A DNA stretch of 64,000 nucleotides from Vicinamibacterales bacterium. Its GTDB lineage: Bacteria; Acidobacteriota; Vicinamibacteria; Vicinamibacterales; JAKQTR01. The position numbers and the translations under genes are program-made. Within the stretch, counting starts at the first letter, position 1. Every line of letters starts with the position of its first letter. The notes under the pieces were generated by a model. It saw only the letters and a list, made by a program, of their open reading frames with translations, was not told the DNA's origin and did not search any database. Of the stretch, positions 786 through 48,606 are shown one piece after another. Location: NCBI GenBank assembly GCA_025456345.1, contig JALOKU010000027.1:1-64000 (forward strand), written 5' to 3'.

Positions 786-806
786 GCTGGCCTCCTTGCC
801 TACCTA

Positions 807-843
807 GTATACTCAATATACACAGTAGCCCTCATTCTGTCAA
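807..843 (-). promoter_or_regulatory. Sigma-70 promoter with overlapping operator for the GntR-ABC operon
   Basis: On the minus strand a perfect -35 TTGACA (843-838) is followed after 17 bases by a near-consensus -10 TATATT (820-815). An inverted repeat with arms GTATA and TATAC and a 5-base centre (807-821) covers the -10 box, and the palindrome AGTATACT (806-813) abuts it. A repressor bound here would block RNA polymerase, as expected for autoregulation by the YtrA-type protein. The region is clearly AT-richer than its surroundings. Binding by this regulator is inference. Confidence 0.8.
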
Positions 844-1038
844 GGGCTCCACAACAGAAAAGGATCGAACGCCATCCGGACGACCGGACAATCCCTCCTG
901 GCCGGCGTTTGAGCCAGGCATCGCGGAGAGGATTCTCGCGGACGGTCAGAACATCCTTCGCGGATGCCCGTCCAATGTCTGTGTAGCCTTGGAGAGAGGC
1001 CGGCCCGGATGCGGAACGGCTCTCAGGAGGGGATGGCC

Positions 1039-1533: not shown

Positions 1534-1545
1534 AGGAGGCGGTCT

Positions 1546-4380: not shown

Positions 4381-4409
4381 GTCCGGCGGCAACACGTGCG
4401 AGGACGGCC

Positions 4410-6164
4410 ATGAACAGCATCGCCAGGCTGACGCTTGCGGCGGCAATCCTGCTCTGGAGTCCGGCTGACAGCCGCGCGCAGACGCCGAACACGATCACTC
4501 CGGATCTTGCACGGCTGACCGACGGAAGGAGCGGGCAGGTCTTCAACCGCGCGCTCGCGGCGGCCGCCGAGAGCGGGCGCACCGTGGCCCGTCTGGACGC
4601 GCGAGCCGGCGACGGGGGAGTGCTGCTGGAAGGGATCCAACTCAGCGAGGGCGTCATCGAGGTCGACCTGAAGGGCAAGGACGTCGCCCAGCAGAGCTTC
4701 CTCGGCATCGCCTTCCACGTCGTCGACTGGACGATGCTCGACGCGGTGTACTTCAGGCCGTTCAACTTCAGGGGCGCCAGCGCCGAGCAGCGATCGCATG
4801 CCGTCCAGTACGTCTCGCATCCCGCCAACACGTGGCAGCGTCTGCGGACGGAGCGGCCGGGCCAGTTCGAGCAAGCGATCGACCCTCCGCCGGATCCGAA
4901 CGGCTGGCTTCACGCGCGCATCGTCCTCGCAGGCGGCCGGGTCGAGGTGTTCGTGAACGGCGGGGCGAAGCCGAGCCTCTCGGTCGAGGATCTCGGATCG
5001 GCGAAGAGCGGCGGCGTGGCGCTGTGGGCCGGCAACGGCTCGGACGGCGCGTTCGCCAATCTGAGGATCACGCCCACGGCGCCGGCTGGGCCGCCGCCGG
5101 CCAGCTCGCAGAACATCTTCCAGGCGTCGTCGACCGGGAATCTCGCGCGGCTGCGGACGCTTGTCGAGGCGGATCCGAAACTGGTCGGCGCGCGCAACCC
5201 GAACGGCTTCACGGCCCTCCATGCCGCCGCGCTCTATGGCCAGCGCGCGACGGCCGACTACCTGCTGGGCAGGGGCGCCGATCCGAATGTGGTGGCGAAG
5301 CACTCGGGCACGCCGCTAGATGTGGCGTACGAGGCCGGCCAGACCGAGTTCGTCGCCTGGCTGGAGCCGCAGGGCGCGCGGTTCACGCCGCTCCGGTTCG
5401 ACGTCGTGCAGGTGGCGCCGGCGATCCGCCGCGTCGCGTTTCCCTGGGGCATGATGAACAACGTCGTCGTCTTCTCGGGCACCGGCGGCGCCGTGGTGAT
5501 CGACACGGGGTTCTCGACGCGCGCGATTCCCGAACTGAAGCGGCTCATCGCCGGATGGTCGGCGCCCGGCATCACGTACGTCGTCAACACGCACGCGCAC
5601 GGCGATCACGTGGCCGGCAACGCCATGGCGCCGTCGCCGCAGGCCGTGATCACGGCTGCGTCGCTCTCTGCCGGCCATCCGGGCCTCCCGGTCACCAGGG
5701 AGGCCGAACCTCTGAAGGGAAGGTCAGGACGCACGCTGCCCGCGCCATACGCGTGGCGCGTCGGAGGCTCGGACATCAAGCTCATTCCCAGGCCGGGCCT
5801 GCACTCGGACGCGGACCTGATCGTCTACTTCCCGGCGGAGCGGGTGGTGGACATGGGCGACCTTCTGCTGTCCGAGAGCGTCCCCGCCGTAGAGGACATC
5901 GCCGGCTACCTCACGTTCCTCGACGACGCGCTGGACGTGTTCCCCGAGGACGCCACGTACATCAGCGGCCACGGGCGCGACCTCGACGCGGCGGGCGTGC
6001 GCGCCTATCGCGACACGCTGAAGGCGATGGGCGAGATCATCCGGACGAACGTTGCGGCGGGCAAGACCGCTGAGCAGATGGTGAAGGACGACGTGTTGAG
6101 GGCGTACAAGGCAAAGTACTCGCTGCTGGAGTTCCTGGCTCCCGACGCCCTGACGCTGAAGTAG
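4410..6164 (+). CDS. Exported ankyrin / metallo-beta-lactamase-fold hydrolase
   Basis: The protein has 584 residues and a clear signal peptide ending near SRAQ. Residues ~30-230 look like a concanavalin/LamG-type beta-sandwich (DUF1080-like). Residues ~237-320 form about two ankyrin repeats. Residues ~335-520 form a metallo-beta-lactamase fold with the zinc motif NTHAHGDHVAGN, a later His and Asp (GLHSDADLIVYFP, MGDLL) and the C-terminal SGHG. These are the usual metal ligands, so it should be an active hydrolase; the substrate is unknown. ATG 4410 is preferred because the signal peptide follows immediately. A GTG at 4377 overlapping the upstream stop (GTGA) is an alternative start that would add 11 residues. 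Confidence 0.85.
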   Translation: MNSIARLTLAAAILLWSPADSRAQTPNTITPDLARLTDGRSGQVFNRALAAAAESGRTVARLDARAGDGGVLLEGIQLSEGVIEVDLKGKDVAQQSFLGIAFHVVDWTMLDAVYFRPFNFRGASAEQRSHAVQYVSHPANTWQRLRTERPGQFEQAIDPPPDPNGWLHARIVLAGGRVEVFVNGGAKPSLSVEDLGSAKSGGVALWAGNGSDGAFANLRITPTAPAGPPPASSQNIFQASSTGNLARLRTLVEADPKLVGARNPNGFTALHAAALYGQRATADYLLGRGADPNVVAKHSGTPLDVAYEAGQTEFVAWLEPQGARFTPLRFDVVQVAPAIRRVAFPWGMMNNVVVFSGTGGAVVIDTGFSTRAIPELKRLIAGWSAPGITYVVNTHAHGDHVAGNAMAPSPQAVITAASLSAGHPGLPVTREAEPLKGRSGRTLPAPYAWRVGGSDIKLIPRPGLHSDADLIVYFPAERVVDMGDLLLSESVPAVEDIAGYLTFLDDALDVFPEDATYISGHGRDLDAAGVRAYRDTLKAMGEIIRTNVAAGKTAEQMVKDDVLRAYKAKYSLLEFLAPDALTLK

Positions 6165-6218
6165 AACCGGGCCGCAGCTCGGACCGGGTCGCGGCGCGTG
6201 CGCCGGCGCTCGGCCGCC

Positions 6219-6572
6219 TCAATGTCGCGGCGAGACGCGGGCGCGCCTGGCGACGAAGGCGCCGACCAACGCGGCCGCGATGACGCCGGCACTCTCACCC
6301 GACAGGCGAATCAGGTTCACCCGCGCGCGGAACTGAGGCCGCCGTTCCGGTGACGGCGGGCACGACAGTGCCGGGATGGCGGCCGCCGGCTGCCGCGCTC
6401 CAATGGCTGAGCAGACATCTTCCGGCCCGGGCGGCGCCCATCGGGGGTAGTGTCCGAGCGGCGCATGGAGCCGGCCGCCCGAGTCCGCGACGAAGCCGAA
6501 GTACGGTGGCGCCGCCGCCTGGCCAATGGCCACGAGCCCGGCAACGATGAACACGACATGCCGGCTGTTCAT
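6219..6572 (-). CDS. Small membrane-associated protein, unknown function
   Basis: The protein has 117 residues. It has a hydrophobic N-terminal segment (MNSRHVVFIVAGLVAIGQAA), a Pro-rich middle, and a second hydrophobic stretch near the C-terminus (GVIAAALVGAFVARRARV) ending in a positively charged tail. This suggests one or two membrane spans with an external loop. GAGGATGAG lies a few bases before ATG 6572. It is 70 bases downstream of another small membrane protein on the same strand, so the two may be co-transcribed. I recognise no family. Confidence 0.6.
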   Translation of the reverse strand: MNSRHVVFIVAGLVAIGQAAAPPYFGFVADSGGRLHAPLGHYPRWAPPGPEDVCSAIGARQPAAAIPALSCPPSPERRPQFRARVNLIRLSGESAGVIAAALVGAFVARRARVSPRH

Positions 6573-6642
6573 GTCTCATCCTCATCGCCACGCCAACCGA
6601 CGGCACGCCCGGCCATGCGGGGTGCGCGGCCGGCGCGCTGGA

Positions 6643-7002
6643 TCAACGCGCCAGGAGCGCCATCACCCAAGGGGCGAAGTTGGTTGCGTAGTGAGCGCCC
6701 ACGGCGTGCTCCCAATCACGCCGGACGAACACGACGGCCGCGGCGGCCGCCGCAATCCGGCCAGCGCGTCCGTCCGCCGCGGGACCGAGCGGCGAAGCAG
6801 GCAGACTCGCCATCGACGGTCCGCTGCGGGCGAGGTACCACAACAGCGCGGCAACGCAGGCCGCGTGGATCGCGGCGCGAACGGCCCCGAACCGGTCCGT
6901 GCCGCCGCCGGACACCAGGATCACGGCCAGCGAGACCGCCGCCGCCAGCCACGCCAGGATCAGGACCACGCATCCGGAAGCGACCCGGCGGTCGACGATC
7001 AC
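6643..7002 (-). CDS. Small integral membrane protein, unknown function
   Basis: The protein has 119 residues and about three hydrophobic spans (VVLILAWLAAAVSLAVILV, AAIHAACVAALLWYLA, and a C-terminal span near NFAPWVMALLA). The reading frame stays open much further upstream, but GTG 7002 is the sensible start: GGGAGG lies four bases before it and the hydrophobic sequence begins directly after. The family is not recognised. The neighbour downstream on the same strand is also a small membrane protein. Confidence 0.6.
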   Translation of the reverse strand: MIVDRRVASGCVVLILAWLAAAVSLAVILVSGGGTDRFGAVRAAIHAACVAALLWYLARSGPSMASLPASPLGPAADGRAGRIAAAAAAVVFVRRDWEHAVGAHYATNFAPWVMALLAR

Positions 7003-7154
7003 GGTGCCTCCCGTCGGGGGCGGGCAGTACTGTGATGGACGGAAGCGGGCGAAGCGAAGTTCGGCCTGTCGCCGTATCCCGACTGACGGAACCGCGTCGG
7101 CAGGGAATGGTGCCAGGCACCATCGGCCGGGACACGTGCCGGGAAGCGTTCCTG

Positions 7155-7940
7155 TCAGGGGCGGCGGCGGGGCGGGAGGGGGAAGAAGGCGCTCGTCGAC
7201 TCGATGTACTCGCGGTAGCCCGGCTTCGAATCCCGCATGGCGGACTCCAGCATGCTCACGCCGCTGACGCGGACGAGCAGGAACGTCATCAGCGCCGGGC
7301 TGAAGATCGTCCACCAGGCGCCGGATGCCGCCGCGAGGAGATAGTGGCCCCACCAGACGGCGGCGTCGCCGAAGTAGTTCGGGTGGCGGGTGTAGCGCCA
7401 GACGCCGCCGGTGAACAGCCTGCCCTTGTTGGACGGGTCGGCTTTGAAGCGGGCGAGTTGCCAGTCGCCGGCGGCCTCGAAGAAGAAGCCGACCAGCCAG
7501 ACGGCCGCGCCGAGCGCGTCGACCCAGTTGAGCGGCCGCTGTGACGCACGGCCGACCACCGCCACGACCGGCGCCGCAACGAGCCACATGATGACGCCCT
7601 GCAGCAGGAACACCTTGACGTAGCTGCGCCACCACCAGGCGGCTCCGGCTTCTTCGCGCCACTTCCGGTACCGGTAGTCCTCGCCCTTGCCCTTGTTGCG
7701 CCAGAAGATGTAGTGCGAGAGCCGGAGGCCCCACACGAGGACCAGCACTCCCAGCAGCCACGCGCGGGGAGCGAAGGCGGACGGCGCGGCTGCGGCCACG
7801 CTCAGGGCGATCGCGACGAACCCGACGCCCCAGAAGGCGTCGACAATGGAGCTGTCGCGCAGCAGGAGGCTCACGAGCCAGAGCACGGTGACAAAGACGG
7901 CCACCGTCAGGCCCGCGACGAGCCACGGGTCGAGGATCAC
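7155..7940 (-). CDS. DUF1295 integral membrane protein (steroid 5-alpha-reductase-like)
   Basis: This 261-residue polytopic membrane protein belongs to the DUF1295/ICMT-like superfamily. It carries several N-terminal spans, then the family's conserved cytosolic region: GLRLSHYIFWRNKGKGEDYRY, followed by the C-terminal motif GVWRYTRHPNYFGDAAVWWGHYL. The RHPNYFG-type motif binds NAD(P)H or S-adenosylmethionine in related reductases and methyltransferases. Members are thought to reduce or methylate lipids or isoprenoids; the substrate is unknown. GTG 7940 is preferred because the first span follows at once; ATG 7979 in the same frame lacks a ribosome binding site. It is transcribed divergently from the FKBP gene. 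Confidence 0.88.
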   Translation of the reverse strand: MILDPWLVAGLTVAVFVTVLWLVSLLLRDSSIVDAFWGVGFVAIALSVAAAAPSAFAPRAWLLGVLVLVWGLRLSHYIFWRNKGKGEDYRYRKWREEAGAAWWWRSYVKVFLLQGVIMWLVAAPVVAVVGRASQRPLNWVDALGAAVWLVGFFFEAAGDWQLARFKADPSNKGRLFTGGVWRYTRHPNYFGDAAVWWGHYLLAAASGAWWTIFSPALMTFLLVRVSGVSMLESAMRDSKPGYREYIESTSAFFPLPPRRRP

Positions 7941-8022
7941 GCCCCCATTATGCGCCGAGCCCCGGCGGATCCGTGCCATAATCAGGGCTGGTTCGGATGC
8001 GGTTTTCCTGGGAGAGGACGTG

Positions 8023-8466
8023 ATGGTTCGGCGTACGCTGGTTCCGGTTCTGGGTTTGCTGGCCCTCGTGTTGCTGCCGTTCGCCACGGCGGGATGCGGG
8101 AGCACGCCGTCGTCGCCGTCGGACTACGCCCCCTACAGCCAGATCGATCTGGTGTTCGGGGAAGGCGTCACCGCGGAGACCGGTAAGGTGCTGACGGTGA
8201 ACTACACCGGCTGGTTCTACGATTCGACGGCGGCCGACAGGAAGGGCGTGATGCTCACCACCTCGGCCATTTCCGGCCCGGTGATCTTCACCGCCGGCGC
8301 GAGCAGCGTCATCGAGGGGTGGGAGAAGGGCGTGCTGGGCATGAGGGAGGGCGGAAGCCGTCGCCTGGTGATCCCGCCGTCGCTGGCGTACGGGCCGAAC
8401 CGCTTCAACGCCATCCCGCCGAACGCCACGCTCGTGTTCGATCTCGAGTTAGTGAAGGTCGAATAG
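8023..8466 (+). CDS. FKBP-type peptidyl-prolyl cis-trans isomerase lipoprotein
   Basis: This 147-residue periplasmic folding catalyst is attached to a membrane by lipid. A lipoprotein signal peptide ends at the lipobox TAGC (Cys ~24-25). The single FKBP domain shows the canonical elements VLTVNYTGWFYDS, PVIFTAGASSVIEGWEKGVLGMREGGSRRLVIPPSLAYG and ATLVFDLELVKVE. The active-site aromatic and hydrophobic residues (Y, F, VIEGW, Y in LAYG) are retained, so isomerase activity is expected. A GGGAGAGGA lies just before the ATG. The gene is divergent from DUF1295 and convergent with the following beta-barrel gene. Confidence 0.93.
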   Translation: MVRRTLVPVLGLLALVLLPFATAGCGSTPSSPSDYAPYSQIDLVFGEGVTAETGKVLTVNYTGWFYDSTAADRKGVMLTTSAISGPVIFTAGASSVIEGWEKGVLGMREGGSRRLVIPPSLAYGPNRFNAIPPNATLVFDLELVKVE

Positions 8467-8487
8467 CGGGCCCGCCGAAAAGGCGCC

Positions 8488-9564
8488 TCAGCCGAGGATC
8501 CGGATGCGGATGCCCCCGATGATGTAGAACGCCCGCTGGTCGGTCCTGCCTTCGCCCAATTGCCGGTCGTCGCCCTTCACGCCAGCCAAGCCGCCCTCGC
8601 CGAAGATCAACGCGCGCTTGCCGGCCGTCACTTCGATGCCGGCCCCTGCGATCCAGCTCCAGCCCTGCGTATAGAGGTTGAAGGTCTGCGTGCCGCCGGG
8701 GAATACGACCGTGGCGTCGTCGATCGTGTAGGTCTGCTCCGTAATGGTCTGCGTGGTCGTCCAGTGGGCACGGCTCCAGGTGGCGCCGCCGAATCCGTAG
8801 GGGCGCACGTACGATAACGGCACGCCGAGCTTGCCGACCATCGTGAACACGTCGGTCTGGAACGTGCTCACGTACTCGTACGCGCTGGTCGCACCCGTCA
8901 GCCGGATGTCGGCGGGCTTCAGCCAGGACGCTTCGACTCCGAGGAACGGCTTCAGCCAGAACGTGGCGCCCGCCGAGAACACCGCCGGTTTGGTGCCGCC
9001 GCTGCATTCTCCGGTGCCGCACACCACGGCGCTGACGCCGGAAAGGCTGGCGATCCCGCCGGCGCCGAACCCGTACAAGCCGCGGCCGGGGGGGTTGACG
9101 GCCCTGGGTGAAGGCGGCTGGTCCACTTCGTCGGTGAGCCACGCGGCCGGCGCCTTGCCCTGCCGGACGAGGACGGACGGCGCAGTCTCCGACACGTTGA
9201 CGACGAGCGTGGTCATCTGGCGCACGACGAATGCGCCCGGCACCTCGCGCCGCGGGCACTGGCCGCCGGGGAATCCCTGCATGCCGGGCTCGATGAGGAT
9301 GACCCGCCGCAGGGTGTCGCAGTACTCGACGAAGACGTAGGCGTCGGCCTCGGTCTTCCCGCCGCGGGCCTCGGGCGTGAGCGCCATCGTCGCCATGCCC
9401 GTGCTGTCGGCCGTGGCCGTTCCGGCCAGGACCGAGTTCACGACGAGTTCGACCGTCCCGCCCGGCGGGGCCTTGGTCACGATGACGGTCTGCGCCGCGG
9501 CGGCGGCGACCACAATCACGTTCAACGCGGCCGCCAGAACCAGCGGCCGCCAGGGTGCCCTCAT
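8488..9564 (-). CDS. Exported outer-membrane beta-barrel protein
   Basis: The protein has 358 residues. A signal peptide (RPLVLAAALNVIVVAAAAAQ) is followed by a ~110-residue beta-rich N-terminal domain with four cysteines (EYCDTLRR, GGQCPRRE and others). The C-terminal half has alternating amphipathic strands with frequent aromatic residues (FWLKPFLGVEASWLKP, YVRPYGFGGATWSRAHW) and a terminal strand FYIIGGIRIRILG, as in OmpA/OmpW-size barrels. ATG 9564 is chosen because GAGGAG lies six bases upstream. The function is unknown; it is probably a small outer-membrane barrel fused to an adhesive or ligand-binding domain. It is divergent from the GH29 gene. Confidence 0.75.
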   Translation of the reverse strand: MRAPWRPLVLAAALNVIVVAAAAAQTVIVTKAPPGGTVELVVNSVLAGTATADSTGMATMALTPEARGGKTEADAYVFVEYCDTLRRVILIEPGMQGFPGGQCPRREVPGAFVVRQMTTLVVNVSETAPSVLVRQGKAPAAWLTDEVDQPPSPRAVNPPGRGLYGFGAGGIASLSGVSAVVCGTGECSGGTKPAVFSAGATFWLKPFLGVEASWLKPADIRLTGATSAYEYVSTFQTDVFTMVGKLGVPLSYVRPYGFGGATWSRAHWTTTQTITEQTYTIDDATVVFPGGTQTFNLYTQGWSWIAGAGIEVTAGKRALIFGEGGLAGVKGDDRQLGEGRTDQRAFYIIGGIRIRILG

Positions 9565-9708
9565 GCCCGGCTCCTCGTAGACGTCACGGCACGCGCGAAA
9601 CGCACGTCTCTCCATGTTACCCCAGACGCGCGTCCGAGCGGTTCCCATCCTGCCTTACAATAACGGCGCCAGGCTGTCCCCATGCCACCAACTCGGATGG
9701 AGGGTCCC

Positions 9709-38829: not shown

Positions 38830-40602
38830 TCACCTGACGTCGAGGGTGACGGAGCCGGTCACCTCGTCCTCGAGCAGCCATCGGTTCGCTACGCGCCGGG
38901 CACGGACAGGGGCGCCTCCGCTGAAGACGCCGCGCGAGCCGGCCGGGGCGGGCAACTCCATCTGCGCCGTCATCCCTGGCGGCAGGGTCACCTTCACGCG
39001 GAAGCCCGCTTCATTGGCCCAGGCGATGTGGACCGGCCCGCGCGGCGTCGGGATCGTGCCGGCCGCCCGCGTCAGCGAGCCGGGGATCGGGCGAATCCTG
39101 GCGCGCCGCCAGCCGGGCGCGAGCGGCTGCGCGCCGAGCACGAAGCGGGGGAGGAGGTTGGCCGGCGCCGCCCCCCATGCGTGGTTCCAGTCCTGGTTGG
39201 GCTTGTACTTCTGGTCCCACGCCTCCCACGTGATCGTGGTGCCGCTTTCGACCATGTGCCGCCAGCTTCGGTCGGTCGCCGCCGTGACGAGCGCGAGTGC
39301 CTGTGCGCCATCACCGTGCTCGAAGAGGCCTTCGAGCAGGTACTGCGCCGCGTACACCGAGCAGGGCATCCCGCGGCTGGCCAGCCACGCCGACACGCCG
39401 GCCGCGTGCTCCGCCGGCACCAGGCCGAAGGCGAGCGGGAAGAGGTTGGCATGCACGGACGCGTGGTCCGTGCCCTCACCGTCGCGATACAACCCGCGCA
39501 CGGGGTCGAACAGCGCGCCCTGGAAGGCCGTGCGGGCTGAACGTTCCCGCGTCCGGTACTCCGCTACCTCGGCGTCGCGGCCCAGCGCGGCGGCGAGCGC
39601 CGCCATGTGGGCCAGCGCGCGAAGGTGAAAGGCGTTGACCACGGTGTTGACCGGCGTGAAGACGTACCCGTCGCGCTCGCCGGCCGGCCAGTCGACGATA
39701 TCCTCCTTCGCGCGCTGAGCCTCCGAGCTCGCGAGCAGGCCGTCGGCGCGGGCGCGGTCGAGCAGGAGCTTGGGCTTCAAGGCTTCGTAGCGCGCGGCGA
39801 GCCATTCCCTGTCGCCGGTGTGCATCCAGTCGGCGTGCGCGATGAAGATCATGTGGAACGCCCACTCCGTCGGCCAGGTGGGACGGGCCATCAGGTGGTC
39901 GAACGTGTCACGCGCCATCTGCACGTCGCGATCGGTGGCGTAGTGGCTGAGCTGATTGAGGTAGGCGTCTGCCTCGTAGGGAATCCGCTCACGATCGCCG
40001 TCGACATATACGCCGGCGAAGGTCGTGGCCTTGATGGAGTAGCGGCACAGCTCCCAGATGCGGTCGAGGAGTCCGTCCGACGACGTGAACGCCGCGGCGG
40101 CATCATCCCAGGTGCTCGCGAACGCCGCCTGCCGGCTCAGATGCTCGGGCCGGAGTTCCCCGGGCCACCCCTCGATCTCGACCCAGCGGAACGGCGTCAC
40201 CACGCCCCATTCCGGCGGCGTGAGCACGGCGGCGGGTTGCCTGGTGTTGCGCGCGTCGGGCAGCGGGGCGGCGACGATGGGCGAGCCGCCCGCCAGCGTG
40301 ACGCGCGCCGTCGAATAGCGGACCGAGCCCGGCGGCGCGCGGTTGACCCGGCCGTCGGCGAGCGACTCGCCGAAGTGCACGGTCACGTCGCCGGCCGCGC
40401 CGGCCGGCGGGAGAAGGCGGAGGTTGCCGAAGGCGACCCGGCCGAAATCGACCAGCACCACCCCCGGAGCCGCCGACGAGATGCGCACGGGAGCCTGCGC
40501 CACCAGCGTGACCGGCGCCGCCGCGGCCGCCCCGGCCCCTAACGCGGCGATGCCAATCCAGGCGGCGAGGACGCCACGCGCGACAGGCGACCGGTCAGAC
40601 AT
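38830..40602 (-). CDS. Exported GH78 alpha-L-rhamnosidase-like enzyme
   Basis: The protein has 590 residues and a signal peptide ending near AAAAAP. A beta-sandwich (~40-170) precedes the (alpha/alpha)6 barrel. The catalytic region reads GVYVDGDRERIPYEADAYLNQLSHY, where GH78 carries its essential acidic residues, followed by TITWEAWDQKYKPNQDWNHAWGAAPAN and a C-terminal beta-domain with NEAGFRVKVTLPPG. It should cleave alpha-L-rhamnose or a similar deoxysugar outside the cytosol. Its ATG overlaps the EIIC stop by eight bases, and it is the last gene of the long operon. At 590 residues it is short for GH78. Confidence 0.88.
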   Translation of the reverse strand: MSDRSPVARGVLAAWIGIAALGAGAAAAAPVTLVAQAPVRISSAAPGVVLVDFGRVAFGNLRLLPPAGAAGDVTVHFGESLADGRVNRAPPGSVRYSTARVTLAGGSPIVAAPLPDARNTRQPAAVLTPPEWGVVTPFRWVEIEGWPGELRPEHLSRQAAFASTWDDAAAAFTSSDGLLDRIWELCRYSIKATTFAGVYVDGDRERIPYEADAYLNQLSHYATDRDVQMARDTFDHLMARPTWPTEWAFHMIFIAHADWMHTGDREWLAARYEALKPKLLLDRARADGLLASSEAQRAKEDIVDWPAGERDGYVFTPVNTVVNAFHLRALAHMAALAAALGRDAEVAEYRTRERSARTAFQGALFDPVRGLYRDGEGTDHASVHANLFPLAFGLVPAEHAAGVSAWLASRGMPCSVYAAQYLLEGLFEHGDGAQALALVTAATDRSWRHMVESGTTITWEAWDQKYKPNQDWNHAWGAAPANLLPRFVLGAQPLAPGWRRARIRPIPGSLTRAAGTIPTPRGPVHIAWANEAGFRVKVTLPPGMTAQMELPAPAGSRGVFSGGAPVRARRVANRWLLEDEVTGSVTLDVR

Positions 40603-41848
40603 CGGCCCCTCGCTCGGCGGTGCGTTCGGCGTTCAGCCGCTGGCGTTCGGCGGCCTTGGCGAACGGATAGTAGACAGCCATGGCGATCAGAATCGAAATC
40701 GCGCCCCACACGGCCGCCCTCCAATCGCCGCCCGACACCAGGTAGTGCCCGACGATGGGCGGCGTGGTCCAGGGCACGGCCACGAACGGCTTCTGCATCA
40801 GGCCCCAGCTCATGAGCAGGTACGTGCAGGTGGTGAGCACGAGGGCGGTCACGACGTAGGGAATCATGAAGATCGGGTTCAGCACGATGGGGAACCCGAA
40901 GAAGATGGGCTCGTTGATCCCGAAGATCTGCGTGGGCAGCGAGAGCCGGCTCACCTTGCGGTAGCCGGGCTCCTTCGACCGCAGCATGACGAGCGCCAGG
41001 CCGAGCGTCGCCCCTGTCCCGCCGACGTTCACGAACGTGCTGAAGAACCCGGAGGCCGTCACGTACGGCAACGCCTGGCCCTGCGCCACGGCATCGACAT
41101 TGGCCGCGAGGTACTGCAGGAAGATCGGCGCGACAATCGCGTCCAGCGTGTTGTCGCCGTTGATGCCCACCGACCACAGCAGCGTGACCAGACATGCGTA
41201 GGCGAGGATGCCGGGCAGGGTGTTCAAGGCGAAGACCAGCGGGGTGAACGCGGTCTGCAGCGCCTGGTTGATGTCGACGCCGGCCACGAACCGGATGAGC
41301 CAGAACGCCACGACCAGGAAGACCATCGGGCTCAGCGAGAGGAAGGTGTCGTAGACGACCGCCGGCACGTGGCGGGGCAGCGCGATGACCCAGTTCCGAT
41401 CGGTGAAGCACTTCTGCACCCGCACCGTCACCAGCGCCACGAGGATGGCCGTGAACAGGCCGCGCGACCCCAGGCCGTCCATGGAAAGCGTCTGGTCCTC
41501 GGGCCGGACCTGGATCAGCAGGAACACGAGCGCCGCCATCGAGGCGCTGACGACGGCCTCCTGCTTCAGCCGCGTACCGAGGTCGTACGCGATCGCGAAG
41601 CAGACGAAGACGGCCAGCAACCCGAAAGTGGCGGTGACCGGCAGCTGGAGCAGGGGCAGGTAGGGCGCGACGACCGTGTCCCAACCGGCCACCGGCAGGA
41701 ACGACACCACGAGGAAGAGCCCGCCGATGATGGTCAGCGGCACGATCGACACCATGCCGGCGCGGATGGCGGACAAGTACGTGTTCTCGCTCAGCACGGT
41801 CAGCGGAGGCACGACGTACTTGTTCAGGAAGGCGGTCGCCGACCTCAC
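40595..41848 (-). CDS. PTS EIIC permease, lactose/cellobiose family (no EIIA/EIIB nearby)
   Basis: The protein has 417 residues and about ten spans. It has the lactose/cellobiose-type EIIC hallmarks: the N-terminal AIRAGMVSIVPLTIIGGLF, LLWSVGINGDNTLDAIVAPI, and the conserved FGINEPIFFGFPIVLNPIFMIPY loop with the catalytic Glu-Pro. No EIIA, EIIB, HPr or EI gene is visible in this window. GTG 41848 overlaps the aminotransferase stop (GTGA). It may use phosphotransferase partners encoded elsewhere or work as a simple carrier for the amino sugar or disaccharide handled by the operon. Confidence 0.9.
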   Translation of the reverse strand: MRSATAFLNKYVVPPLTVLSENTYLSAIRAGMVSIVPLTIIGGLFLVVSFLPVAGWDTVVAPYLPLLQLPVTATFGLLAVFVCFAIAYDLGTRLKQEAVVSASMAALVFLLIQVRPEDQTLSMDGLGSRGLFTAILVALVTVRVQKCFTDRNWVIALPRHVPAVVYDTFLSLSPMVFLVVAFWLIRFVAGVDINQALQTAFTPLVFALNTLPGILAYACLVTLLWSVGINGDNTLDAIVAPIFLQYLAANVDAVAQGQALPYVTASGFFSTFVNVGGTGATLGLALVMLRSKEPGYRKVSRLSLPTQIFGINEPIFFGFPIVLNPIFMIPYVVTALVLTTCTYLLMSWGLMQKPFVAVPWTTPPIVGHYLVSGGDWRAAVWGAISILIAMAVYYPFAKAAERQRLNAERTAERGADV

Positions 41849-43113
41849 GCGGGCCCCTTCCGGCGAGTGCCTCGCTTCCGGGACCACTCGGAGAGCGCGG
41901 CCCGGTTTGCGTGGACCTTCTCGAACGCCCGTGCAATGTCGTCCATGTCGGCGCGCCTGCCGAGCAACATCGCCTGCTCGAGCCACACGCCCTGCTCGCG
42001 GCAGATCAGGTCGCTGTTGGGGCACTCCGCGCGGCTGTAGTCCGTCCGCGCCGCGGCCCCGTGCAGATATGGACCGAAGGCCCGCTCACGGAACATCGGC
42101 TGCTGCGGCAGCGAGAACCCGTAGCCGGCCGAGCACGGAATGCCCTCCGCGCGGAGCGCCTCGATGGCCGCGGCCCGCGGCACGCCGAACGCGGCCGCGT
42201 CCAGCCTGAGCATGAAGAGATGGTAGCTGTGCCGCGTGCAGGAGGCGGGGCGCTTCTGCGGATGCAGGCCCGGAAGCGCCGAGAGCCGCGCGGCGAGGTC
42301 GCGGCCGTTGCGGTCGCGGGTGTTCGTCTGCGCCTCGAGCCGATCGAGTTGGGCGTTGAGCACCGCGCCCTGGAACTCGCCGAGGCGGTAGTTGCCGGAG
42401 ACCGTGTGGTGCTCGTACCACACACCGCCCGGCACCCGGCCGCAGTTGTGCAGGGAACGGCAGGCGTCGGCCAGGCGGCGGTCGCTGGTCGTGATGATGC
42501 CGCCCTCGCCGCACGTGAGGTTCTTGCTGGACTGGAACGAGAACGACGCGAGGTGCCCCAGGCTCCCGGCGGGCCGGTCCTTGTACCGCGCCCCGTGGGC
42601 GTGGGCGGCGTCCTCGATGACCACCAGGCTCCGCGTCCGCGCGATGCGCATGATCGCGGCCATGTCCGACGGCTGCCCGGCGAAATGGACGGGAATGACG
42701 GCGCGGGTGCGCGGCGTGAGGGCGGCCTCCACCGCGGCTGGACTCAGATTGAAGGTGTCGAGATCGATGTCGGCGAAGACCGGAATCATGTTCGCCTCCA
42801 CCACCGCCGACGCCGTGGAGAAGAACGTGTACGGGGGCACGATCACCTCGGCCTCGGCGGGCACGCCGGCCGCGATGAGCGCCAGGCGCAGCGAGACGGT
42901 GCCGTTCGAGACGGCGATGCCGTGCCGGCAGCCGTGCATCCCGGCAAAGCGCGACTCGAAGCGCCGCACCTCGTCGCCGTGCAGCCGGCCCCACTGTCCG
43001 CTGCGCAGCGTGCGGAGCAGCCGGGCTTCCTCGGCCTTGCCGAAGACGGGCCACGCCGGGAAGGCCCTGGTCCGCACCGGGCGGCCGCCAAGCAACGCGA
43101 GCGGAGATGTCAT
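41845..43113 (-). CDS. DegT/DnrJ/EryC1/StrS-family PLP aminotransferase
   Basis: This 422-residue fold-type I aminotransferase shows FAGMHGCRHGIAVSNGTVSLRLAL, the PLP-binding Asp in VVIEDAAHAHGARYKDR, the Schiff-base Lys in FSFQSSKNLTCGEGGII, and HNCGRVPGGVWYEHHTVSGNYRLGEFQGAV. Family members aminate keto-sugars, usually nucleotide-linked, or inositols (scyllo-inosose type). Here it is bracketed by an acetyltransferase and an EIIC carrier, so an amino sugar or aminocyclitol is likely. Its ATG overlaps the acetyltransferase stop by four bases. Confidence 0.92.
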   Translation of the reverse strand: MTSPLALLGGRPVRTRAFPAWPVFGKAEEARLLRTLRSGQWGRLHGDEVRRFESRFAGMHGCRHGIAVSNGTVSLRLALIAAGVPAEAEVIVPPYTFFSTASAVVEANMIPVFADIDLDTFNLSPAAVEAALTPRTRAVIPVHFAGQPSDMAAIMRIARTRSLVVIEDAAHAHGARYKDRPAGSLGHLASFSFQSSKNLTCGEGGIITTSDRRLADACRSLHNCGRVPGGVWYEHHTVSGNYRLGEFQGAVLNAQLDRLEAQTNTRDRNGRDLAARLSALPGLHPQKRPASCTRHSYHLFMLRLDAAAFGVPRAAAIEALRAEGIPCSAGYGFSLPQQPMFRERAFGPYLHGAAARTDYSRAECPNSDLICREQGVWLEQAMLLGRRADMDDIARAFEKVHANRAALSEWSRKRGTRRKGPA

Positions 43114-43739
43114 GGGTCGAGCGCCTTGCCCAGGTAGACCACGCCGTCCGTCGCCGAACCCACGCGGATGAGTTCCGTGAAGCCGATCCTGCGGTAGAAC
43201 CCAAGCGCCGGGTCGTTGCGCACGCTCACGCCCAGGTGCACGCCGGGCGACCCGCGCCTCTGCAGCGTGTTCATGACCTGCTCCATCATCTGCCGTCCGA
43301 ACCCGCGGCCTTGCGCCCGCTCGAGCAGGTCGATGTGCATGTGCGAAGGATAGGCCTCATAGGGTTCGGGGCAGTAGTAGTCGGGGTGGTGATACCAGGA
43401 GTGCACCGTCTGTGCGCGCGTCCATGAGGACGGATCGCCTTGCGGCATCGGATGACGGGCGCATAGTTGCGGCCGCCAGTCCGACTCGTAGCGCGAATAG
43501 AAGGCGCGCGAGTCGAACGCGCCGAAGGCATAGCCGCACACGCCATGCCCGTCCTCGAGCATCAGTCCCAGTTCGGGCTCGAAGGCGAGGTAAGGACCGA
43601 CGAAGATCCGGCCCAGGGCGTCCGGGTCGTCCCCGTAGAACGGCTCGCCGTCGGCGCCGTGATCGCCGGTCTTGAGACAGATGTAGTAGGCGGCTGCCTG
43701 ATCGTCCGGCCGCGCGGAGCGAATGGTGAAGGCGCTCAT
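43110..43739 (-). CDS. GNAT acetyltransferase resembling the HAT-like domain of animal O-GlcNAcase
   Basis: This 209-residue single-domain GNAT has an intact acetyl-CoA loop (AQGRGFGRQMMEQVM, 142-156). The whole sequence tracks the C-terminal domain of metazoan O-GlcNAcase: AAAYYICLKTGDHGADG, DPDALGRIFVGPYL, LMLEDGHGVCGYAFGAFDSR, the long insert with SDWRPQL, and SHMHIDLLERAQGRGFG. Human O-GlcNAcase carries a pseudo-acetyltransferase version that lacks a working acetyl-CoA loop; this one retains it. ATG 43739 overlaps the GH84 stop (ATGA), so the two proteins are made together. The acceptor is unknown; a freed hexosamine is a natural candidate. Confidence 0.88.
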   Translation of the reverse strand: MSAFTIRSARPDDQAAAYYICLKTGDHGADGEPFYGDDPDALGRIFVGPYLAFEPELGLMLEDGHGVCGYAFGAFDSRAFYSRYESDWRPQLCARHPMPQGDPSSWTRAQTVHSWYHHPDYYCPEPYEAYPSHMHIDLLERAQGRGFGRQMMEQVMNTLQRRGSPGVHLGVSVRNDPALGFYRRIGFTELIRVGSATDGVVYLGKALDP

Positions 43740-45082
43740 GCGACGGCTCCTGGTGCCGGGCCGGGCGAGGCCACCACGCCGCCGCGATAGGTGCCCGGAC
43801 GATGAAAGTCCGACCGGCATGGCGCGCCCGGGTCGGCTTCCTTGGACCGCACGCAGGCCAGCAGCAGGTCCATCTCCTCCCGCAGTTCCCACGTGCGTCG
43901 GCCGAGCGCGTAGAAGAGCGGGCGGTCGCGCAACTCCGACACGCGCGCGCACACGTCCCGCAGGCGCGCGGCCTGCTCCTTGACGGCGAAGGCGCTGCCC
44001 CACGTCGCCGGCTCCGAAGCCAGCAGGCCTTGCGCCGACGCGATGAGAGACTCGGCCAGAGGACCTTCTTCATACGGGAGGTAGTAGCAGTCTCCAAGCA
44101 GCAGGAGGTCGTCGAGCGAGATGGGAGGGCCCACGGTCTCGAAACGCGGCAGCCACGCGCCCATCGCCTCGAGGTACGCCCGCCGCGCGTCCCAGGGGCC
44201 GTCGCCCCGGACGAACTCGCCGAGTGTGCGCAGCGGCACGTAATTCAGCGGCAGTTCGTTGTTGGGATTGGCCAGGATCCCGGCCACCTCCTGGCGCAAG
44301 GCGCCGGGCCGGCCGGCGTACGGGCCGCAGTAGAAGCGCCGGCCGTCGTAGTCGTTCGCGTGAAGGTTGTCCCAGATGAGCGGCTTGCGCCGGAGGATCT
44401 GCCGCAGTTCACGGACGTGCGCGACGGTGATGTCGCGCGACACGATCTCCGGCCCGGTCCAGCACACGTCGAAGCCGGCATCCAGTTCGCGCCCCACGGT
44501 GTCCAGATAACCCGCGCCGCCGAGCTGCCGGTCCGCCATCCTCCCGCAGTACGGCGTCGGACAGAAGAGGAAGCGCGCGCCGGGCCGCCGCTCCCGGACC
44601 CACCGGAACACGCCGTTCGTCACGTCGCACTGCGCGGAGGCGAATGACGTCCAGCGCGCCGCATCCTCGGCGTGCATGCGATCAGGGATGTCGTCGAAGA
44701 GCAGCGCGAAGTGCTCGCACCCCAGGGCCAGCATCTGCTCGAGGCGTGCGTGAAGGCGGCCCCGATCCGGCTCGCTGCCGAACCGGATGTCGAGACCCGG
44801 ACTGAGCGCATAGATGAACCGCAGGCCGCGCGCGGCGCAGTCTCGAACCGTCGCCGCGAGCGCGTCGGCCTCCTCAGGCGAGTAGGTCTCCCGCCACAGC
44901 GTGCGGTGCTTGAGGTCGTCTTTGGGGGCGTAGAGGTAGGTGTTCAGGCCGAAGTCGGCCATCCAGTCGAACAGCTCGAGCCGTTCTGGCGCGGACCAGG
45001 GCCGGCCGTAGAAGCCCTCGATGGCCCCGGCCAGGAAGGCGCCGTCATGCGCGTCGGCCGCGACGGCTGGTCCGTCAGTCAT
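43736..45082 (-). CDS. GH84 O-GlcNAcase / beta-N-acetylhexosaminidase
   Basis: The protein has 448 residues and no signal peptide, so it is likely cytosolic. GH84 hallmarks begin at once: FLAGAIEGFYGRPWSAPERL, GLNTYLYAPKDDLKHRTLWRE and YALSPGLDIRF. The catalytic Asp pair lies in LLFDDIPDRM (Asp130, Asp131), and LIWDNLHANDYDGRRFYCGPY supplies the binding Asn and Asp. These are the residues used for substrate-assisted hydrolysis of terminal beta-O-GlcNAc. Bacterial relatives are often secreted hyaluronidase-like enzymes; a leaderless form suggests imported HexNAc-saccharides or intracellular targets. Overlapping the acetyltransferase gene, it recreates the two-domain layout of animal O-GlcNAcase as separate genes. 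Confidence 0.95.
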   Translation of the reverse strand: MTDGPAVAADAHDGAFLAGAIEGFYGRPWSAPERLELFDWMADFGLNTYLYAPKDDLKHRTLWRETYSPEEADALAATVRDCAARGLRFIYALSPGLDIRFGSEPDRGRLHARLEQMLALGCEHFALLFDDIPDRMHAEDAARWTSFASAQCDVTNGVFRWVRERRPGARFLFCPTPYCGRMADRQLGGAGYLDTVGRELDAGFDVCWTGPEIVSRDITVAHVRELRQILRRKPLIWDNLHANDYDGRRFYCGPYAGRPGALRQEVAGILANPNNELPLNYVPLRTLGEFVRGDGPWDARRAYLEAMGAWLPRFETVGPPISLDDLLLLGDCYYLPYEEGPLAESLIASAQGLLASEPATWGSAFAVKEQAARLRDVCARVSELRDRPLFYALGRRTWELREEMDLLLACVRSKEADPGAPCRSDFHRPGTYRGGVVASPGPAPGAVA

Positions 45083-45089
45083 GCGCGCA

Positions 45090-46661
45090 TCACTCGCCGA
45101 TCAGGAACTTGTGGTGCCGCCCCATCCAGTACGGCAGCAGGAACGCGCCGCCGTCCGACTCGGAGCGGCCTCCGCGGCCGCCGTCGACCACGAAGGGGTT
45201 GGCGTTCCAGCGCATGACCGGCCGCTCGTCCGGCGGGAGGAGCGTGCGCGCCTCGCGCCTGCCGTGCCGATCGGCGTCGGTGGCCCATTCGATGCCGGTG
45301 CGGTGTGAATTCCTGACGTCCCAGTCGATCAGATCGAGGGGCATCCGGTAGAGCGTCCACACCGCCCCCGGCAGGTCGACGGCGGCGTCGGGACGGCCGG
45401 TCAGGTAGATGAACGTCCAGAGCGGGGACAGTTCGCGCTGCATGTTCTGCCACCAGTCGTCCAGCGCGCGGCGGTACGCCGCGAGCATCGCCGGGTCCCG
45501 CTCGTAGCGGAACACGGCGTAGAAGGGCAGCATGGCCAGCTCCTCGTCGGAGTAGTTCATCTCCACGCGGACGTCGTGCAGGCGCAGGATGAGTGTGGCG
45601 TAGCCCAGGTCGTGCGCGACCTTTCTATATTCCGTCTCGTATCGTCCGTCGCCGGTGATGTGCGCTGCCGTCTTGAGGAAGCTGAGCAACTCGAGCGCGT
45701 TGAGCGCCGAGTCTTCGGGATCCTCTGCGAAGTACTTCGGCGACCACTTGCCCCACGTGGTCGGCTGGCCGTCGACGTCCACGAGGTGGTAGCCGCTCGA
45801 GACGATGTGGTCCATGATGCGGCGGGTCGTGGCGGCGATGCGCGTCTTGAGATCGGCATCGGGAAGCAGGTCGTAGGCGATGCCGAACGCGAACATGTGG
45901 CCGACGATCTCGTCGGAGCTCGTGTCGCCTTTCCAGTAGATCTGCCCGTCGGCGGTCCAATGCCACTCGCCGCTTGCCGGCATGCGGTCGCCCTTGCGGA
46001 TGTACGAGCGGGCGGGGAAGCCGCGGCGCCCGGTGACTTCCTCGAGGAAGAGCAGCGCCTCGACCGCTTTGCGGGCGTTCGCGAGGGAGTCGGGGGAGGA
46101 CGTGACGGCGTAGCGGAAGCACTCCGCCGCGGCGTAGATCGACGTCCACAGGCCGTTGTTGTCGTTGTCGACGTGGCGGCTGGTGGACAGGTCGCCGGGG
46201 ACTTCCAGGAGCGAGTCGCCGAGCATGCCGTAGCGGTCGTGACGCAGCCGCACGTTCTGCTCCATCACCTCCGCCTTCTGCAGGAGCGTCATGGGACGCA
46301 GTTCGATGTGCGACACGCCTGTGCGCGTGCGCACCCAGACGCCGCCCGTCGCGTCGGCGACGATTCGCTGGACGTCGTCATCCGGCAGGTACCGCTTGCC
46401 GGCGAAGTACTGGAGGCGGTCGCGCGGGGGCGCCTTCTCGTCCACCCGCGTCAGCCCCCGGGGACTGCCGGACCAGACCGCGCCGTCGGCCGCGCGGACG
46501 CCGGGCGGCCTGTCTGCCGCCTCGCGGAGGGCTGCCGGGACGGCCGGGTCGCCGGCCTGATAGAAGGTGCGCACCTTCTGCGGGTACGGGGCGAGCCTCA
46601 CGGGCTGCGCCGCGAGAGCGGCGCCGGCCAGGACCGCGGCGCACACGACCACGGCGCGCAC
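45090..46661 (-). CDS. Exported (alpha/alpha)-toroid protein of unknown family
   Basis: The protein has 523 residues; the GTG start is one base after the aldo/keto reductase stop. A signal peptide (AVVVCAAVLAGAALAAQ) leads into a short beta segment resembling regulator-propeller blades (DDVQRIVADATGGVWVRTRTGVSHIEL). A long helical domain follows, with HVDNDNNGLWTSIYAAAECFRYA, WHWTADGQIYWKGDTSSDEIVGHMFAFGIAYDLL and GQPTTWGKWSPKYFA. The paired helices suggest an alpha/alpha barrel like GH or lyase enzymes; Asp, Glu and Trp residues cluster in likely active-site loops. I do not know the family. Its operon suggests a glycan-related role. Confidence 0.78.
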   Translation of the reverse strand: MRAVVVCAAVLAGAALAAQPVRLAPYPQKVRTFYQAGDPAVPAALREAADRPPGVRAADGAVWSGSPRGLTRVDEKAPPRDRLQYFAGKRYLPDDDVQRIVADATGGVWVRTRTGVSHIELRPMTLLQKAEVMEQNVRLRHDRYGMLGDSLLEVPGDLSTSRHVDNDNNGLWTSIYAAAECFRYAVTSSPDSLANARKAVEALLFLEEVTGRRGFPARSYIRKGDRMPASGEWHWTADGQIYWKGDTSSDEIVGHMFAFGIAYDLLPDADLKTRIAATTRRIMDHIVSSGYHLVDVDGQPTTWGKWSPKYFAEDPEDSALNALELLSFLKTAAHITGDGRYETEYRKVAHDLGYATLILRLHDVRVEMNYSDEELAMLPFYAVFRYERDPAMLAAYRRALDDWWQNMQRELSPLWTFIYLTGRPDAAVDLPGAVWTLYRMPLDLIDWDVRNSHRTGIEWATDADRHGRREARTLLPPDERPVMRWNANPFVVDGGRGGRSESDGGAFLLPYWMGRHHKFLIGE

Positions 46662-46662
46662 G

Positions 46663-47646
46663 CTATGCCGTCCAGGTCCCGTCGTCGCGGTGGCCCGTGA
46701 AGAAGCGGGCCATCTCGACCGTGCTGCCGGCGTACTGCCGGCGGAGCCGATCCATGTCGGCGGGGGAGAGCGACGACGCGAACGCCTGCGCCGTCGCGAC
46801 GTTCGCTTCGAGGAACTCGAGCTTCGGCATGCCGCACACCGCCGTCGAGATCGGCAGGCTCCAGGCGTAGCGGAGCAGCGACGCCGCGTCGGCTTTGCCT
46901 GCGCCCAGCAGCTTGTCCTGCCCGGTGACTTTCATCAGGATGACGCCCAGGTTCTTCCGGTTCGCGGCCGGCAGCGCCAGTTCCTCGAAGCGAAGCGCGC
47001 GCGAGGGGTTCATCGCCATCTGCACGCAGTCGAGGTCGTGCCGCTCGATCGCCTTCGCCATCACGGCGCCGTCGCTGTGACTGGTCATCCCAATGAAGCG
47101 CGCCACCTTCTGCTCGCGCAGCTGGTAGAGCGCCTTCAGCGCGCCGTCAGCGGCCTCGATCTTCGCCAGGTCCGCCTCGTCTCCAAGTCCGTGAAGGTGC
47201 AGCAGGTCGACGTGGTCGGTCCGGAGGCGCTTGAGGCTGGCCTCGACTTCCCGCAGGGCGGCATCCCGCGTTCGGGCGCTCGGAGGGACCTTCGTCGCGA
47301 CGAACACGTTGCGGCGCCGCGCCGCCAGAAAACGGCCCACGCGCGTTTCGCTCTCGCCGTTGCCGTAGTCAATCGCCGTATCGAGATAGTTGATACCGAG
47401 GCCAACGGCTCTCTCGATGACCGACGTCGCCTGCTCGGCGGGGAACTGCAGGAAGCGGCTGCCGCAGCCCATCGCGAGAATCGACACGCTGACGCCTGTG
47501 CGGCCCAGCGTGCGGTGCGGCATCAGCGTGGCGGCCTCCGCCGGGCCGGACGCCGCGACGAGCGACGGGATGGCCGCGACGGCACCCGCCATGGCCCCGC
47601 TCTTCTCCAGGAACTCGCGCCGGCTGATTCGCTCGTGCATCGACAT
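46663..47646 (-). CDS. Tat-exported aldo/keto reductase
   Basis: The protein has 327 residues. The N-terminus ISRREFLEKSGAMAGAVAAIPSL is a twin-arginine signal. The aldo/keto reductase barrel follows, with the catalytic tetrad in INYLDTAIDYGNGESE (Asp, Tyr), VFVATKV (Lys) and DLLHLHGLGDE (His). Bound NADP should be carried folded through the Tat system, which explains the signal. It presumably oxidises or reduces a sugar or cyclitol in the periplasm. It sits between the isomerase-like gene and the unknown toroid gene, all spaced by a few to ~30 bases. Confidence 0.93.
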   Translation of the reverse strand: MSMHERISRREFLEKSGAMAGAVAAIPSLVAASGPAEAATLMPHRTLGRTGVSVSILAMGCGSRFLQFPAEQATSVIERAVGLGINYLDTAIDYGNGESETRVGRFLAARRRNVFVATKVPPSARTRDAALREVEASLKRLRTDHVDLLHLHGLGDEADLAKIEAADGALKALYQLREQKVARFIGMTSHSDGAVMAKAIERHDLDCVQMAMNPSRALRFEELALPAANRKNLGVILMKVTGQDKLLGAGKADAASLLRYAWSLPISTAVCGMPKLEFLEANVATAQAFASSLSPADMDRLRRQYAGSTVEMARFFTGHRDDGTWTA

Positions 47647-47673: not shown

Positions 47674-48606
47674 CTACGAGGCCTTGACGCCCGCGGCAGA
47701 CAAGTAATCGGCCATCGTCTTCGCGTAGTGCGGGAACGCGACCTCCGGCTCCTCGATCTCCGGATGCCACTTCTTCTCCCACTCGAAGGAGTACAGGCCC
47801 TTGTAGCCTGCCGCCGCCAGCACCTTGACCTGCTCCTTCACGGGCACCTCGCCCGCGCCGAGCAGGACGTAACGGCGGTCGGCCCCTTCCGGCTTCGAGT
47901 CCTTGAGGTGCGTATGGCGCGTCCACTTCCCGATTCTGGCGAACGTGTCGGCGGGTTTTTCCCCGGCGGCGACGAAGGAATGGTGCGCGTCCCACAGGAG
48001 TGCAAACTGCGGCGACCCGACGCTGGTCAGGATGTTCTCGAGGTCGGCCGAGCGCGTGAAGTCGCCGTGCGATTCGATCAGCACGGTGACGCCCGCCGGC
48101 TTCCCGTAGTCCGCCATCGCCCGGAAGCCCTCGATGACGCGCTTCATCACCTCGTCTTTCGGTTCGCCCTCGGGGAACTTGTCGCCGAACATCCGGACGT
48201 ACTTCACGCCCATCGCCTGCGCGAGGTCAATGAAGCGCCGGCCCTCGTCGAACTGCTGCGCCCGGACCGCCGCGTCCTTCTCGTGCATGCGTGCCGACGC
48301 CCCGAGATCGCTCACGGCGATGCCGAGGGCGGCGAGGTCGCGCTTCGCGTCTGCGAGGCGTGTGCCGGTGAACTCCGGGACCTTCGGCAGGTCCATCTCG
48401 CCGGCGATGCCACGGAGCTCGATCGCCACGAAGCCGCCCTTGTCGGCGTTCGCCAGGATCGTTTTCCAGCTCCAGGCGGGGCAGCCGAGCGTCGAGAAGG
48501 CGATCGGGTAGCGCGCCGGGCGCGACTGGGCACGAAGCAGGGCGGGCGCGGTTGCGAGTCCCGCACCGAGCGTGGCGAGAAAGGAGCGGCGGTTCACGGC
48601 GGTCAT
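47674..48606 (-). CDS. Tat-exported sugar isomerase/epimerase-like TIM barrel
   Basis: The protein has 310 residues. A Tat signal (MTAVNRRSFLATLGAGLATA) precedes an AP-endonuclease-2/xylose-isomerase-like barrel. Metal-site motifs are visible: the Glu in GFVAIELRGI, VTVLIESHGDFT, FALLWDAHHS with the His/Asp, HTHLKDSK, and the terminal GLYSFEWEKKWHP with the last Glu. Enzymes of this fold isomerise or epimerise ketoses or inosoles, or cleave C-C bonds. ATG 48606 follows GGGAGG, which is partly inside the 3' arm of a perfect hairpin. It is the first gene of the long operon. Confidence 0.92.
   Translation of the reverse strand: MTAVNRRSFLATLGAGLATAPALLRAQSRPARYPIAFSTLGCPAWSWKTILANADKGGFVAIELRGIAGEMDLPKVPEFTGTRLADAKRDLAALGIAVSDLGASARMHEKDAAVRAQQFDEGRRFIDLAQAMGVKYVRMFGDKFPEGEPKDEVMKRVIEGFRAMADYGKPAGVTVLIESHGDFTRSADLENILTSVGSPQFALLWDAHHSFVAAGEKPADTFARIGKWTRHTHLKDSKPEGADRRYVLLGAGEVPVKEQVKVLAAAGYKGLYSFEWEKKWHPEIEEPEVAFPHYAKTMADYLSAAGVKAS

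Follow-up and report, generated by a model that had tools for sequence, protein, structure and literature searches.

A conserved bacterial gene pair joins an O-GlcNAcase-type GH84 to a GNAT acetyltransferase with an intact acetyl-CoA motif

The first 64,000 nucleotides of contig JALOKU010000027.1 from a Vicinamibacterales bacterium, here called the window, carry a gene for a GH84 enzyme of the O-GlcNAcase (OGA) type that overlaps a separate gene for a GNAT acetyltransferase of the OGA C-terminal family. The pair is real and well conserved, and its function is newly framed here: with a probability of roughly 0.5, GH84 and the GNAT form a cytoplasmic unit within an uptake operon that processes amino-sugar glycosides, which are acetylated and then cleaved. 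The pair and its intact acetyl-CoA site are already known from Oceanicola granulosus. What is new is the wide conservation of the pair, the sugar-uptake logic of its operons, the existence of single-chain fusions with an intact acetyl-CoA motif, and the placement of the animal protein in the trees. The genes, their families and couplings, the intact motifs, the conservation of the operon, and the absence of the phosphotransferase system (PTS) protein EIIB and of O-GlcNAc transferase (OGT) were all computed.

The window GNAT resembles the C-terminal domain of OGA along its whole length. When compared by phmmer with the Protein Data Bank (PDB), it matched OgpAT of O. granulosus (3zj0; 3.6e-41), SsAT of Streptomyces sviceus (4bmh; 1e-38), the pseudo-acetyltransferase (pHAT) domain of Trichoplax OGA (6r45; 6e-25), and residues 714-916 of human OGA (2e-22); other GNATs appeared from 3e-4, covering the acetyl-CoA motif alone. 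An AlphaFold2 (AF2) model with a predicted local distance difference test (pLDDT) value of 97 gave Foldseek TM scores of 0.91 to OgpAT, 0.86 to SsAT, and 0.87 to the Trichoplax pHAT, versus ∼0.55 to the remaining GNATs. The top structural matches are OGA-type domains, not an unrelated GNAT group, and the match covers the full fold, including the insertions that separate the OGA C-terminal/OgpAT type from other GNATs. The P-loop, QGRGFG, is intact at residues 143-148, and T24, H133, H135, N175, and Y182 are also present; T24, H135, N175, and Y182 correspond to T25, H135, N175, and Y182 of OgpAT. Both marks of the bacterial members that were lost in animals, the acetyl-CoA motif [QR]xxGx[GA] and H135, are found in the window protein. 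Among 44 family members, H133, H135, Y130, P131, and N175 are invariant, the OgpAT site residues, kept in the window GNAT, are invariant or almost so, and a YPxHxHID...P-loop pattern is present in 40/40 GNATs linked to GH84. Judging from these motifs, the window acetyltransferase, unlike the animal domain, apparently still works.

The GH84 protein is of the OGA type, comprising a barrel with an Asp-Asp pair and a stalk, and glycosidase activity is predicted for it. Its catalytic pair, D130/D131, lies within the motif FDDIPD, and it matches human OGA (PDB) at 2e-93 and the O. granulosus enzyme, OgOGA, at 1e-87. The helical stalk was recognized at residues 318-436 as a second phmmer stretch aligned to the human OGA stalk. 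The active-site columns are invariant in 35 relatives, and no signal peptide is evident in the window GH84. The first-pass annotation, made from the DNA letters, had described two open reading frames (ORFs), namely, a GH84 with Asp130/Asp131 that overlaps by ATGA a separate 209-residue GNAT, and had claimed that the latter follows the metazoan domain end to end and has a normal acetyl-CoA loop. The coordinates match, and the further claims are borne out by the comparisons above.

The interpretation given in the same annotation is supported in part. The core of the finding is already known from the work of Rao et al. (2013) on the Oceanicola pair and of He et al. on a Streptomyces homologue of the GNAT. 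According to Rao et al. (PMC3814719), OgOGA is followed by OgpAT in the same gene neighborhood, the function of the bacterial pair is stated to be unknown, OgpAT is shown to bind acetyl-CoA in a crystal complex and by surface plasmon resonance, H135 is named as the candidate general base, and human OGA is described as lacking the P-loop. He et al. (PMC3919268) report that SsAT binds acetyl-CoA, and a 2025 study (PMC12494797) confirms that animal pHATs do not. The Oceanicola and window pairs share an OGA-type GH84 directly followed by a GNAT resembling the OGA pHAT, with the QGRGxG P-loop, T24/25, H135, N175, and Y182, and the two GNATs are 41% identical over the fold. However, the window pair is part of a GH84-GNAT-DegT-EIIC unit, whereas the nearest Oceanicola relative compared, locus L067 from Rhodobacterales, has the order ABC (ATP-binding cassette) importer-GH84-GNAT-GlcNAc (N-acetylglucosamine) kinase-like gene. 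SsAT shares the GNAT family and acetyl-CoA binding with the window protein; in contrast to the latter, the Streptomyces relatives examined have no GH84 beside them. No report of a bacterial GH84-GNAT fusion was found in the open-access literature searched.

To assess conservation, GTDB genomes were scanned and the neighbors of the resulting loci were analyzed. The pair occurs chiefly in Verrucomicrobiota, with additional cases in Acidobacteriota and Planctomycetota. Of 236 genomes sampled from one verrucomicrobial class, independently of adjacency, 15 have OGA-type GH84 (>350 bits). The GNAT was present in all 15 of these and, at comparable strength (>140 bits), in only 4 of the other 221 (Fisher 2e-20, an optimistic value because the sample includes near relatives). 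The two genes are adjacent on one contig in 13 of the 15, so that the predicted adjacency is indeed kept in other genomes; the adjacent copy in G557 is cut by a contig end, and in a few genomes, such as G471 and G364, the genes lie apart. Where a GNAT stands alone at its locus, an OGA-type GH84 was found elsewhere in the genome in 6 of the 9 such genomes tested. The same class also encodes long GH84s, mostly of 850-1100 aa and probably secreted, and genomes with this type alone lack the GNAT except for one weak, 43-bit match (G363), as would be expected if the GNAT, as the partner of GH84, needs cytosolic acetyl-CoA. Within the phylum of the window itself (297 genomes, including its own), the GNAT was found in just one of the other 296, which makes the pair rare there; that single locus (L003) again reads GH84-ATGA-GNAT-DegT.

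Two types of modules surround the pair. The first, represented by the window, is GH84-GNAT-(DegT)-EIIC, where EIIC is a PTS permease. About half of the EIIC-type and related loci have DegT after the GNAT, and none of the ABC-type modules has it. EIIB (PF02302) is absent from the window's own genome and from 21/21 genomes with the module, one of which is given as 100% complete in one contig, and the controls were positive. Because EIIB is missing throughout, EIIC is an orphan permease that probably imports its substrate without phosphorylating it. The second type combines an ABC sugar importer, GH84, the GNAT, a PF01869 kinase, and an SIS sugar isomerase; its solute-binding protein is weakly similar to NgcE and its kinase to GlcNAc kinase. 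It was identified in Verrucomicrobiota, Trueperaceae, the Rhodobacterales relative of Oceanicola (L067), and Salinibacterium, with some of the loci incomplete. The identity of the SIS partner as the peptidoglycan etherase MurQ was ruled out, given that it matches the PRK02947 family instead, and its assignment as a NagS-type GlcNAc-6P dehydratase (PMC12680351) is only a lead. OGT (GT41) was not detected in the window's own genome, G000 (90.8% complete), or in G125, whose one contig is given as 100% complete; of the 31 module genomes, 5 have it and 26 do not. The importer, kinase, and SIS context, along with the general absence of OGT, points to uptake and catabolism of amino-sugar glycosides as the probable role of these operons rather than cycling of O-GlcNAc on proteins.

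The mechanism that would unite these observations rests on the chemistry of GH84 enzymes, which use the 2-acetamido group of the substrate as the nucleophile (PMC4263850). A glycoside with a free 2-amino group should for this reason be a poor substrate, and a coupled N-acetyltransferase would lift the block. A beta-linked glucosaminide, wholly or partly de-N-acetylated and derived from chitosan, peptidoglycan, or exopolysaccharide, would enter unphosphorylated through the orphan EIIC or, in the sister operons, through the ABC importer. The GNAT, using His135 as the general base, would then move an acetyl group from acetyl-CoA onto the free 2-amino group, and the resulting 2-acetamido group would serve as the intramolecular nucleophile for GH84, which, via D130/D131, would release GlcNAc for catabolism by the kinase and the SIS-type protein. 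Here, the substrate, the order of the steps, the general base, and the role of DegT are what we infer. Two precedents contribute to the proposed order. RmNag, a fungal protein with GH3 and GNAT in one chain, cleaves (GlcN)2, the glucosamine (GlcN) dimer, only with acetyl-CoA, the GNAT acetylating first, and it acetylates free GlcN, too (PMC4680927). In the peptidoglycan salvage of C. acetobutylicum, GlmA is reported to acetylate non-reducing GlcN prior to cleavage by an N-acetylglucosaminidase (NAGase) (Reith & Mayer 2011, as cited in PMC4680927). RmNag thus provides the coupling of a hexosaminidase to a GNAT that is proposed for the window, although its hydrolase is GH3 rather than GH84, its GNAT is tandem, and its activity is proven; GlmA likewise provides a GNAT acting on non-reducing GlcN ahead of the NAGase, although its partner is not GH84. 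That partner is reportedly NagZ, of GH3. Both are likened to the window GNAT by function, not by sequence, so that N-acetylation of glucosaminides by the latter is suggested by functional analogy only. Joint processing of amino sugars, as put forward in the first-pass annotation, fits the coupling and adjacency, and the process itself remains a prediction; the deacylating role suggested alongside it found no support, with nothing deacetylase-like in the unit.

Several observations weigh against acetylation followed by cleavage. The evidence on OgpAT and SsAT concerns acetyl-CoA binding only. Plain glucosaminide catabolism does not explain why about half of the modules carry DegT; neither a GlcNAc kinase nor a deacetylase is adjacent in the window operon, and the neighbors there are a GH78-like enzyme, an aldo/keto reductase, and a TIM barrel isomerase. 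Close GNATs without an adjacent GH84 exist as well, and the actinobacterial relatives mostly come from genomes without OGA-type GH84 and have unrelated neighbors, so that different members of the family may use different amines as acceptors.

DegT is the starting point of a less probable alternative, in which, in the manner of PerA/PerB-type pairs, DegT aminates a keto sugar or keto glycoside and the GNAT acetylates the new amine, and GH84 then removes or trims the acetamido sugar; the unit would then modify or build an unusual amino sugar rather than salvage glucosaminides. The ATGA coupling of the GNAT to DegT in the window, the position of DegT after the GNAT in many relatives and in L003, its similarity to amino-cyclitol and keto-sugar aminotransferases, and the aldo/keto reductase and TIM barrel isomerase in the same gene run all agree with this. 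Nevertheless, DegT is dispensable across the modules: it is missing from about half of those of the EIIC type and all of the ABC type while GH84, the GNAT, and the importer stay, and the unit has no nucleotide-sugar genes or glycosyltransferases. The same operon logic would accommodate a GNAT that follows GH84 or works in parallel with it, acetylating a released amine, such as free glucosamine, galactosamine, or an amino aglycone, either to detoxify it or to feed GlcNAc catabolism, and RmNag does acetylate free GlcN (PMC4680927). This is unlikely, given that the products of GH84 are already N-acetylated, so that free GlcN would not be the main product, and that the single-chain fusions hint at sequential action on one substrate. 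Functional independence of the two proteins, with an operon shared for regulation, would suit the few genomes in which the pair is kept apart (G471 and G364) but is made very improbable by the repeated ATGA overlaps, the 13/15 adjacency, and the fusions. Finally, there is only a slim chance that the pair reverses bacterial protein O-GlcNAc modification as animal OGA does and that its GNAT acetylates proteins. GH84 and its stalk are strongly OGA-like and OGT and OGA occur together in Thermobaculum terrenum (PMC4683255), but GT41 is lacking from the window's own genome, G125, and 26/31 module genomes, and the operons encode sugar import and probable GlcNAc phosphorylation.

In three bacterial genomes of Planctomycetota and Verrucomicrobiota, GH84, the stalk, and the GNAT form one chain with an intact P-loop (Table 1). 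The L127 fusion aligns to both halves of human OGA (E = 2.6e-130), and its stalk-GNAT half aligns as a single stretch to human residues 550-915. For the L038 fusion, AF2 modeled GH84 and the stalk well but the GNAT poorly, because the latter is covered by only two rows. Two separate bacterial fusion events could not be demonstrated, as a single fusion clade is not rejected (approximately unbiased test, p = 0.455). Metazoan OGA (human; TaOGA of Trichoplax) has the same GH84-stalk-GNAT order, with similarity to the human protein at 2e-93 for GH84 and ∼2e-22 for the GNAT. It differs in being one polypeptide, whereas the window has two ORFs and bacterial fusions were found only in L038, L047, and L127, and in an animal GNAT domain that has no P-loop and does not bind acetyl-CoA.

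In the GNAT tree, the Trichoplax pHAT groups with verrucomicrobial rows linked to GH84 (99/93), but on an end branch of 3.3. A tree of GH84 was made separately and rooted on the long type; it places Trichoplax OGA within the OGA-type clade, among 16 rows (86/96) that include the same verrucomicrobial lineages (L042, L043, L048, and L039-L041). Thus, with moderate support, both Trichoplax domains appear to fall among GH84-linked verrucomicrobial genes. This concordance suggests, tentatively because of sampling and long branches, that the animal OGA gene came from one linked bacterial pair, most likely through fusion and loss of acetyl-CoA binding. Ever since the acetyltransferase-like domain of O-GlcNAcase was put forward as a histone acetyltransferase, what it does has been a matter of dispute. 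The bacterial relatives, with intact acetyl-CoA motifs and operon or fusion ties to GH84 and importers, offer a testable ancestral function, namely, to N-acetylate glucosaminides so that substrate-assisted hydrolysis can follow. It is conceivable, at well below even odds, that animal OGA is a fused verrucomicrobial-type GH84-GNAT operon for acetylation and subsequent cleavage of imported glucosaminides and that its pseudo-acetyltransferase is what remains of a glucosaminide N-acetyltransferase rather than of a histone acetyltransferase. If so, the bacterial fusions with a working acetyltransferase would be living counterparts of the ancestral enzyme; probably active, these single-chain versions are available for biochemistry and structure. 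The initial idea that the arrangement may show the original role of the animal domain is strengthened by the operon context, the P-loop-intact fusions, and the trees, and stays conjectural.

Table 1. Coordinates of the gene pair, its neighbors in the window, and the bacterial fusions
Feature	Position	Strand	Size, evidence, or remark
GH84 beta-N-acetylglucosaminidase, OGA type with stalk	43736..45082	-	448 aa; PF07555 (NAGidase) 3e-74
GNAT acetyltransferase, OGA C-terminal (pHAT-like) family	43110..43739	-	209 aa; phmmer, AF2, Foldseek
ATGA overlap GH84/GNAT	43736..43739	-	ORF coordinates
DegT/DnrJ/EryC1/StrS pyridoxal phosphate (PLP) aminotransferase	41845..43113	-	PF01041 1e-96; PDB 1b9h/1b9i ∼3e-74
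PTS EIIC permease, lactose/cellobiose/diacetylchitobiose family	40595..41848	-	TIGR00410 298 bits (cut-off 236)
Putatively secreted 523-aa protein, unnamed family	45090..46661	-	kept beside GH84-GNAT in L016, L028, L033
Aldo/keto reductase with twin-arginine translocation (Tat) signal	46663..47646	-	profile matches
Xylose-isomerase-like TIM barrel protein	47674..48606	-	profile match
Alpha-L-rhamnosidase-like (GH78) enzyme	38830..40602	-	profile match; overlaps EIIC end
Fusion L038	3495-5489		665 aa; Planctomycetota
Fusion L047	8-1984		at least 661 aa, contig end; Planctomycetota
Fusion G380	L127:40-2136		699 aa; then PF01869-type kinase

The pair lies in a run of eight tightly packed minus-strand genes that extends from 48606 to 38830. 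Coupling continues past GH84-GNAT, a feature that the first-pass annotation had not recorded: the GNAT and DegT overlap by ATGA (43113-43110), and DegT and EIIC overlap by GTGA, with the EIIC start GTG at 41848 and the DegT stop at 41845. The solved structures nearest to this DegT, which is here coupled to a sugar-catabolic unit, are 3-amino-5-hydroxybenzoic acid (AHBA) synthase and 2-deoxy-scyllo-inosose aminotransferase. An orphan EIIC of the lactose/cellobiose family is tied to GH84-GNAT in the window and in 20 related genomes. The 523-aa protein has no Pfam or NCBIfam name and shows weak similarity to propeller sensors at residues 56-117 only. Among the actinobacterial loci, a hexosaminidase beside the unlinked GNATs was not found in the cases scanned, which have GH2, GH36, and others instead; for example, the GNAT relatives in L065, L071, and L078 immediately follow GH36 or GH2 (beta-galactosidase) genes, not GH84. 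In Salinibacterium (L074, ∼800 to 9600), genes for an ABC importer, GH84, an SIS protein, a kinase-like protein, and a GntR/UTRA protein are accompanied by a divergent GNAT gene.

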